In this document: piece after piece, positions 358 to 7,411 of the stretch | How positions within the stretch are numbered: position 1 is the first letter of the stretch | Layout: each line of letters starts with the position of its first letter | IMG/VR virus record: IMGVR_UViG_3300024273_000117 | Coordinates: 1-36,172 of that record | Direction: 5' to 3' (one strand) | Source of the DNA: a virus | Length of the DNA stretch: 36,172 nt | Notes under the pieces: generated by a model | Told to the model about the DNA's origin: nothing | Seen by the model: only the letters and a program-made list of their open reading frames with translations | Databases searched by the model: none | Program-made: the position numbers and the translations under genes

Positions 358-645
358 TCAAGTTGCTCTCCACTCACGTTCTTTACGCCCACTAGCGGAT
401 AGCACTTCTTTCCCTGTTAGTTCTATAAGGCCAGCACGTTGCAACTCATGTAGCCGCCTAGCTACTTGTTGTTTATCTAATTCTACCAACTCCCATATGC
501 CATCTTTGCCTAAGCTGCCATACTTTTTAAGACACGCCACAATTATCTTGTAGTGTTGTGATGAGAACTCGTTTACAGACTTAGCAGCTTCTTTGCTGGT
601 TGTTGGGTCTGTTACTCTGGCTCTGGCAAATAAATCTGCTTGCAT
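358..645 (-). CDS. Putative winged-helix DNA-binding protein
   Basis: The 95-residue protein begins with a DPTTSKEAAKSV segment followed by a helix-turn-helix-like region (about residues 35-75: KIIVACLKKYGSLGKDGIWELV, then DKQQVARRLHELQRAGLIEL) and a basic end (ASGRKEREWRAT). This layout matches small phage winged-helix proteins of the MarR/IclR-like fold and suggests a transcriptional regulator, though no target can be assigned. The SD AAGGGG lies 8 nt before the ATG and falls in the last codons of the upstream gene. It is one of few recognisable DNA-binding regulators here, so it is a candidate for binding the operators between 6400 and 7400. Confidence 0.7.
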   Translation of the reverse strand: MQADLFARARVTDPTTSKEAAKSVNEFSSQHYKIIVACLKKYGSLGKDGIWELVELDKQQVARRLHELQRAGLIELTGKEVLSASGRKEREWRAT

Positions 646-6406: not shown

Positions 6407-6430
6407 GATATACCTGTCTTGGTTAGTAGG
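6407..6430 (-). repeat. Shared early-gene leader, copy D
   Basis: The minus strand reads CCTACTAACCAAGACAGGTA then TATC before the ATG at 6406. It is the most diverged copy but keeps CTAACC-A-GACAGGTATATC. It lies in front of the first gene of the operon, so it belongs to the 5' end of the early transcript. Confidence 0.6.
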
Positions 6431-6457
6431 TCAGCGTGATTGCTTCCCATGTTGTTT

Positions 6458-6487
6458 ATTATAGGCTTATGAATAAAAATATGTATA
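6458..6487 (-). promoter_or_regulatory. Candidate leftward early promoter
   Basis: On the minus strand TATACA (4 of 6 matches to TTGACA), an 18-nt spacer and a perfect TATAAT lie about 50 nt before the first leftward gene. It lacks the GTGTGG spacer end found in the late promoters. The position is right for the early operon, but the -35 is weak. Confidence 0.45.
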
Positions 6488-6665
6488 TGTAAACCCTAAG
6501 TTGCAAGATAACAACACCAGCCTGATTGCCTAGCACAAACCATGCCAATCAATAATCGTGCCAAGCCATTAGCGGCCTTCTAAGCGGTTTAGACTGCTTA
6601 CCCTACCTAACCCCTGCGAAATAGTTATCCCGCGTTTCAGTGGATATCTCACATGGTGGAATGAC

Positions 6666-6938
6666 TTGTCCACAGCCTGTGCATAACTATGGTGTCTTGT
6701 ATGTGACAGTTGGTTAGTCTTTGTTGCTGTATAGGCTACCGCATAGACTCACACACTTGGTTACACGATAGCTCAATTACTTGGTAACTAAGTTACATAG
6801 GCTGTGACTACTCTTATGTCTTATAGAAGACCACTCTTATGTCTTATAGAAGACTACTCTTATGTCTTATAGAAGACTGCCCAGCCTGTGGATAACTATT
6901 AACATGCACTATACTGCCTGTGGATAACCTGTGGATAA
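6666..6938. other. Cluster of DnaA-box-like 9-mers (candidate origin)
   Basis: TGTGGATAA (complement of the consensus box TTATCCACA) occurs at 6887-6895, 6919-6927 and 6930-6938. TGTGCATAA is at 6678-6686 and TTGTCCACA at 6666-6674 in the opposite orientation. The 21-bp stretch beginning CCTGTGCATAACTATGG at 6676 recurs at 6928 with one mismatch. Three perfect boxes plus two one-mismatch boxes within 273 bp of non-coding DNA are typical of DnaA-dependent origins. The iterons lie between the two groups. Confidence 0.7.
6810..6878. repeat. Three tandem 23-bp iterons with inner dyad
   Basis: Three direct repeats start at 6810, 6833 and 6856 and differ only at the last base of the first copy. 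Each contains GTCTTATAGAAGAC, a dyad with 5-bp arms GTCTT/AAGAC around ATAG (6818-6831, 6841-6854, 6864-6877). The 23-bp period is about two helix turns, so bound proteins would sit on one face of the DNA. Initiator-binding iterons and multi-copy operators both look like this. The next DnaA box begins 9 bp after the last copy. Confidence 0.85.
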
Positions 6939-6970
6939 CTATGGTGTCGATTCGCTACTACTTAGTGACA

Positions 6971-6986
6971 GGGGAGGGGGGAGGGG
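6971..6986 (+). other. G-rich tract
   Basis: GGGGAGGGGGGAGGGG on the plus strand, 33 bp to the right of the last DnaA box. It could form a strained G-quadruplex or act as a strand-specific signal; nothing more can be said from the sequence. Confidence 0.6.
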
Positions 6987-7163
6987 ATTAGCTAGGCTGT
7001 ATATTTGTAGTACCCGCCCAGATACAAAATAGGGCTATTATTGGAACTAATTAACCTACCTAGAACAAACACCTATATAGACTTAGAAGGTTGATTTAAA
7101 ACAATAAAGGCGGCAACAAGGCCTAACCAATCAATAACCAATATTACTGAGGCTAACCTATCA

Positions 7164-7245
7164 CCAGTCGATGTCGCCTACTTAGGGACGGTAGTTATAA
7201 TCTTAAATACCCACTAAGAGTCGCATAGGTGACAATCTCGACTGG
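7164..7245. repeat. Long bulged inverted repeat
   Basis: CCAGTCGA (7164-7171) pairs with TCGACTGG (7238-7245). TGTC, then CCTA (with a G-T pair between), then CTTA and GGG pair with GACA, TAGG, TAAG and CCC, interrupted by bulges of 3, 7 and 2 nt on the right arm. About 24 base pairs enclose a 22-nt loop. It lies upstream of the late promoter, so it is probably not in the late mRNA. It could be a DNA cruciform at the origin, a small RNA or a terminator for other transcription. Confidence 0.6.
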
Positions 7246-7284
7246 AGGTTATGACGATAAGGCATAAAAAAGTGAAGATAGTAC

Positions 7285-7313
7285 TTGACATTTTAGCAAA
7301 AGTGTGGTATAAT
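7285..7313 (+). promoter_or_regulatory. Late promoter 1 (sigma-70 type, consensus)
   Basis: Perfect TTGACA and TATAAT with a 17-nt spacer ending GTGTGG, which also supplies an extended -10 TGn. It is placed about 100 nt before the small terminase gene and probably drives the terminase, lysis and portal genes. The same element recurs at 12521 and 21240. Confidence 0.9.
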
Positions 7314-7375
7314 GATTGTTCTATATAGGTATGAAGGTGATAGGGTTTATTTAAATTATATCTGACGTTCATAGG

Positions 7376-7390
7376 TATATAGCCTATATA
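7376..7390. promoter_or_regulatory. Palindrome TATATAG-C-CTATATA, possible operator
   Basis: A perfect 7-bp inverted repeat around a single C, in the 5' leader between late promoter 1 and the first late gene. A half-copy (CTATATAGG) lies at 7321, just after the expected transcription start. The pairing could bind a regulator or form a weak RNA hairpin before the SD. Confidence 0.4.
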
Positions 7391-7411
7391 GTCTAATTAG
7401 GAGTCCCAGTA

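Follow-up and report, generated by a model that had tools for sequence, protein, structure and literature searches.

The window, meaning the whole stretch of DNA that was analyzed, is a 36,172-base virus record without end repeats. Its genes are arranged in two convergent blocks, and transcription diverges at the intergenic region spanning positions 6407 to 7411. The leftward block encodes a T7-type primase-helicase, ThyX, ribonucleotide reductase, PhoH, a 5'-3' exonuclease, and the C-terminal part of a family A DNA polymerase; the rightward block carries the lysis, terminase, portal, scaffold, capsid, and tail genes. Since the polymerase is 556 to 612 amino acids (aa) long in relatives, approximately 1 kb is missing between the two ends of the window. 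A search for RNA families and tRNAs found none. The intergenic region holds five DnaA boxes within 273 bp (6666 to 6938), three of them perfect. A sequence-only reading of the window had described five 9-mers at or within one base of the DnaA consensus in this space, two of them within copies of a 21-bp repeat, in noncoding DNA between divergent operons. All of this holds, the noncoding stretch being bordered by the first early open reading frame (ORF) on one side and the first late gene on the other (Table 1). Just to the right of the boxes, at 6971 to 7034, lies a conserved core that consists of a G-block followed, at 52 bp, by GATACAAAAWAG. This core, the three 23-bp tandem repeats, and the sigma-70 promoter of the late operon are additions to what the sequence-only reading described.

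Table 1. Features of the divergent intergenic region and selected genes of the window
Feature	Position	Strand	Sequence or remark
T7-type primase-helicase, 530 aa	1949-3541	-	
First leftward (early) ORF, 81 aa	6161-6406	-	Left border of intergenic region
Sigma-54-like -24/-12 site	6549-6564	-	TTGGCACGATTATTGA; toward early operon; last -12 base off consensus
DnaA box, one mismatch	6666-6674	+	TTGTCCACA
21-bp repeat, two copies	6676-6696, 6928-6948		CCTGTG(C/G)ATAACTATGGTGTC; each copy holds one DnaA box
DnaA box, one mismatch	6678-6686	-	TTATGCACA; inside first 21-bp repeat copy
Palindrome	6783-6797		GGTAAC-TAA-GTTACA; two similar ones replace the boxes in sister L026
Three tandem 23-bp repeats, iteron-like	6806-6877		CTCTTATGTCTTATAGAAGACTA
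Perfect DnaA box	6887-6895	-	Exact TTATCCACA
Perfect DnaA box	6919-6927	-	TTATCCACA; first of head-to-tail pair, 11 bp apart
Perfect DnaA box	6930-6938	-	TTATCCACA; second of pair; inside second 21-bp repeat copy
G-block, first half of core	6971-6986		GGGGAGGGGGGAGGGG
A-element, second half of core	7010-7034		GTACCCGCCCAGATACAAAATAGGG
Sigma-70 promoter, 12/12 match	7285-7313	+	TTGACA-17-TATAAT, extended -10; reads into late operon
First late gene, 125 aa	7412-7789	+	Terminase small subunit by position and synteny with phage tf
Family A DNA polymerase, C-terminal 248 aa	35406-36152	-	Cut by contig end

Is such a cluster to be expected by chance? Across the whole window there are 12 near-boxes against 10.2 expected, hence the total is ordinary and it is the clustering that is unusual. 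Among 1000 shuffled windows, none matched the observed cluster of five or more near-boxes in 273 bp, and a single one reached four or more. Three exact boxes per window turned up in 5 of 1000 shuffles, and 5000 shuffles of the 959-bp intergenic region never produced more than three near-boxes or more than one exact box.

Relatives were gathered in four ways: by primase-helicase, by TerL, by the box motif, and by the core pattern. An unbiased census of 62 loci was then defined by leaving out the window and all loci fetched by the box motif. In 17 of the 62 (about 27%), at least three boxes lie within 300 bp to the left of the core, where the shuffle control gives a mean of 0.003 such loci and a maximum of 1. 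The cluster thus recurs at the homologous place in relatives chosen independently of the motif, and the observation passes the refuting test proposed with it. The 17 comprise 8 of the 21 loci fetched by TerL, 3 of the 12 fetched by primase-helicase, and 6 of the 29 fetched by the core pattern. On the right side of the core, no unbiased locus (0/62) carries three or more boxes, and near-boxes number 110 in 28.9 kb to the left versus 17 in 30.3 kb to the right. In 36 of the 62 core-bearing loci, the 450 bp that precede the core on its left contain no box. Start-to-start spacing of boxes in relatives is 11 bp in 19 instances and 22 bp in 11, mostly head to tail; the extended box CCTGTGGATAACT has near-uniform flanks, and the box nearest to the core is often 11 to 60 bp away from it. 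One locus, L122, has up to 10 near-boxes, and in the clade L134, L148, and L165 the boxes occupy the same place in the opposite orientation. In the clade L134/L135/L148/L163/L165, the only one of three groups to align cleanly and the only one used, variation is tenfold lower in the box columns than in the rest of the alignment; the sample is small.

The DnaA array is an exchangeable module to the left of the conserved core. On a TerL tree of 51 loci (a quick tree, with support by SH-aLRT only), the DnaA state requires 12 changes, gains or losses of the array, and the well-supported branches force at least 7. Loci L023 and L026 are near-identical on both flanks and differ in a stretch of about 90 bp, where L023 has four perfect boxes and L026 has two GTAAC-N3-GTTAC sites. 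The right-hand three boxes are common to the window and L004, its closest relative, to the left of which lie the three 23-bp iterons in the window and GTAAC palindromes in L004. The 23-bp iteron contains an inner inverted repeat, GTCTT-ATAG-AAGAC, and is present in several copies in relatives; iterons and boxes are mostly found in different relatives, and L006, L007, L008, and L199 have iterons without DnaA boxes. Further relatives carry other repeats in the same slot. Among the relatives compared, no convincing ORF covaries with the iterons. As boxes are present in only about a quarter of the unbiased loci and are missing from the near-identical L026, DnaA is not strictly required in this lineage; because sister phages do without boxes, other factors must be able to take its place, presumably proteins that recognize the iterons or palindromes.

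The core, by comparison with its exchangeable neighbor, is conserved with or without DnaA boxes, and most relatives share it upstream of the first late gene. Its consensus is the G-block GGGGCGGGGGAGGGG, about 22 variable bases, and then GTACCc.CC.AGATACAAAAWAGgg..AAAttAG. The sequence between the two halves is mostly unconserved and the spacing is near-constant, the start of the G-block lying 52 or 53 bp from ACAAAA in 49 of 74 distinct cases. The protein encoded by the first late gene has invariant, AT-hook-like GRP motifs at residues 11 to 13 and 27 to 29 in all 42 aligned relatives. It matched no named database family, and tblastn of the 125-aa sequence against 50,697 phage records gave no match, thus no detectable TerS homology; its predicted fold has a mean pLDDT of 65, too low for a fold search. 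Four TerL matches lie in metagenome bins of different phyla and so are not usable for naming a host.

When cultured phages were searched with the intergenic region, the one meaningful match was the sigma-70 promoter of Pseudomonas phage tf, whose annotated promoter the late promoter of the window resembles. The late promoter block AAAAGTGAAGA.AGTACTTGACA...AAAGTGTGGTATAATG is nearly the same at positions 7260 to 7320 of the window and 45797 to 45854 of tf, a Pseudomonas putida phage, and this likeness exceeds what the promoter hexamers alone require. On the early side, sigma-54-like sites (TGGCAC-N5-TTGC) that point toward the early operon number 20, in 17 of 65 loci, versus 1 in the reverse direction, and none lies to the right of the core in the 65 loci. 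Control of phage early genes by sigma-54 would be unusual.

Which proteins could start replication here? The profile of the T7-type RNA polymerase (PF00940) is absent from the window and from 20 phage relatives, while the positive controls T7, LUZ100, CRP-125, and YIMV22061 were all detected, so a polymerase simply missed by annotation is rejected. The search covered 22 records, of which L219 sits in a bacterial bin and is not counted as a relative; the window misses about 1 kb inside polA, and the searched relative G010 is a circular assembly without that gap. The sequence-only reading was thus right that this phage has no RNA polymerase and that it keeps a T7-type primase-helicase and a polymerase, the latter of family A. 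The hybrid origin that it proposed is supported in part. A T7-type replisome in a phage without an RNA polymerase is not unique, being shared by Roseobacter phage SIO1 and by tf. A phage-encoded DnaA is also rejected, as a dnaA gene turned up in none of the 12 records searched. Neither PHROGs nor Pfam revealed a Rep-type initiator in the ORFs scanned. The product of the ORF at 358 to 645 (minus strand) is winged-helix-like, with weak matches to MarR and Phage_rep_O below the cutoff, and is a candidate initiator or regulator.

In eight genomes, the distance between the core and the minimum of the circular cumulative GC skew is 1, 15, 76, 238, 590, 855, 901, and 1745 bp, the largest value being that of the window. 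A skew turn, one of the signs by which the proposed origin was to be recognized, is thus found at the junction in all eight genomes but is inseparable from gene direction; because the turn coincides with divergent transcription, skew is not decisive for an origin. DNA is predicted to be unstable at 6776 to 6851, around the iterons, and at 7001 to 7076, to the right of the G-block, and promoters are equally unstable. None of the 70 exact boxes has a DnaA-trio within 16 bp (mean of 0.6 under the null), and the DnaA-trio architecture of the basal unwinding system (BUS) is accordingly rejected.

From the arrangement of these elements we infer that the junction is an origin and that DnaA binding, DNA opening, and helicase entry would take place at the array. 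The intergenic region from 6407 to 7411 would be the replication start junction and probably also the site at which DNA is cut for packaging, with the array, on the early-gene side of the core, serving as the platform on which host DnaA lands. Assembly of DnaA along the phased, head-to-tail boxes would assist in opening the adjacent AT-rich DNA, whereupon the phage T7-type primase-helicase could enter the opened strand and make primers for the family A polymerase. In T7, the gp4 primase-helicase needs no dedicated loader to get onto single-stranded DNA. In sister phages, the 23-bp iterons, GTAAC palindromes, and other repeats in the slot would serve this purpose through a different protein. 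That the array is a host-DnaA-binding initiation module at the replication or terminus junction of the phage is a proposal to which we give even chances. A broader and more tentative picture, possible though we would not lean toward it, is that this lineage of podophages without an RNA polymerase retains a single core at the replication/terminus junction and exchanges the module beside it on which the initiator lands, some members hijacking host DnaA and near-identical sisters using iterons or palindromes read by other proteins. Different openers could then let in a T7-type helicase, and the pressure behind such swaps may come from satellites, host defense, or a change of host.

Could the junction instead be a terminus or packaging region, with the G-block and A-element as a terminase recognition or cut site and the DnaA boxes as a regulatory add-on rather than an origin? 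Much of the case comes from the LUZ24-like phages (Pseudomonas phage tf, Krylovvirus), which share with the window the two convergent gene blocks. Like the window, phage tf combines a T7-type primase/helicase with polA and has no annotated RNA polymerase, and its 186-bp terminal repeats were experimentally mapped to the equivalent junction, between the early genes and the sigma-70 promoter (PMC3517423). A similar promoter precedes TerS in both genomes, the order TerS-lysozyme-TerL-portal is common to them, and the left end of tf reads 5'-CCCCGG, a G/C run. The core sits upstream of the small terminase gene, as expected of a terminase site, and is kept whether boxes are present or not; moreover, five core-bearing loci have their ends 3 to 22 bp to the left of the G-block, the interval from 23 to 107 bp being free of ends. 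However, G-homopolymers can by themselves break assemblies, other contig ends are scattered over more than 1 kb, and the circular assembly G010 has no fixed end, its 127-bp overlap probably being an assembly k-mer. Packaging also accounts for the core but not for the phased DnaA arrays evolving beside it. In tf, unlike the window, no DnaA-box cluster and no G-block/A-element core were seen, and since the cluster is lacking there, synteny with tf leaves the array unexplained. Taken whole, this explanation is unlikely. The core on its own may nonetheless be a packaging site, given the synteny with tf and the genome ends mapped to the same junction; together with the loci that end at the G-block, this makes a terminase site at least as likely a role for the core as an unwinding element. 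Origin and terminus may share the junction.

The boxes might also act as a decoy that sequesters host DnaA and stops host replication, independently of any phage origin. The many near-boxes of L122 and the dispensability of the array, which is absent in L026, fit titration, but a decoy needs no fixed place, yet the boxes are phased and confined to the left of the core, and we consider it improbable. A little more doubtful still is transcriptional control, in which boxes, iterons, and palindromes would be operators of the leftward early promoters, regulated by DnaA or another host protein. The module does lie between divergent operons and has leftward sites of sigma-54-like and sigma-70-like type close by; against this, the arrays often adjoin the core and not the early promoters, and sigma-54-like sites occur both with and without boxes (8 versus 9 loci). 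Functionless chance clustering or local duplication, which the two boxes within a repeated 21-mer might suggest, is extremely improbable in light of the window shuffles (0/1000), the recurrence in relatives (17/62 against 0.003 expected), and the seven or more state changes forced on the tree, and boxes recur in unrelated arrangements and in both orientations.

How does the proposed DnaA-binding initiation module compare with known systems? In iteron plasmid origins of the pSC101/P1 oriR type, DnaA boxes stand beside short tandem iterons, as in the window; unlike in these plasmids, no Rep protein was found, and the relatives with iterons are usually not those with boxes. The cobavirus SIO1 resembles the window in having no RNA polymerase and in its replication module of primase-helicase, polA, thymidylate synthase, ribonucleotide reductase, and PhoH, but it has a different gene layout and lacks a DnaA cluster over the 34.9 kb analyzed. 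Bacterial oriC regions, like the window, have tandem high-affinity DnaA boxes no more than 3 bp apart near a GC-rich element and an AT-rich one, the latter being a candidate unwinding element in the window, and in the bacterial basal unwinding system the DnaA-trios lie at most 16 bp from a box (PMC8287927). The window, in contrast, is without DnaA-trios, its A-element lies beyond the 16-bp maximum, and the array is phage-carried. Exchange of initiator-binding repeat modules between close relatives at an origin, putative in the present lineage, is also seen in the Vibrio cholerae PLE satellites, in which a matching RepA domain covaries with the repeats (PMC8263062). The lineage of the window differs in that no covarying initiator gene was seen and DnaA is host-encoded.

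The use of DnaA by a phage is not in itself new, since P1 oriR and coliphage 186 involve DnaA. In a Pseudomonas myophage, DnaA boxes have been predicted by software (PMC11512268), and a survey of alphaproteobacterial phages found DnaA sites without positional bias (PMC9437464), a pattern to which the cluster in the window would be an exception. No description of a phased, recurrent, exchangeable DnaA array in phages with a T7 replisome was found in the open-access literature, which has plasmid and chromosome boxes.

Overall, these phages may borrow the replication starter of their host, DnaA, and the arrangement bears on how T7-type replisomes start in phages without an RNA polymerase, SIO1, the LUZ24-like phages, and the lineage of the window among them. 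The exchange of modules between near-identical genomes supplies natural matched pairs for testing dependence on DnaA. If DnaA does open the DNA at this junction, the bacterial initiator would be linked to a phage helicase that loads itself, and copying of the phage would depend on a cell-cycle switch of its host.
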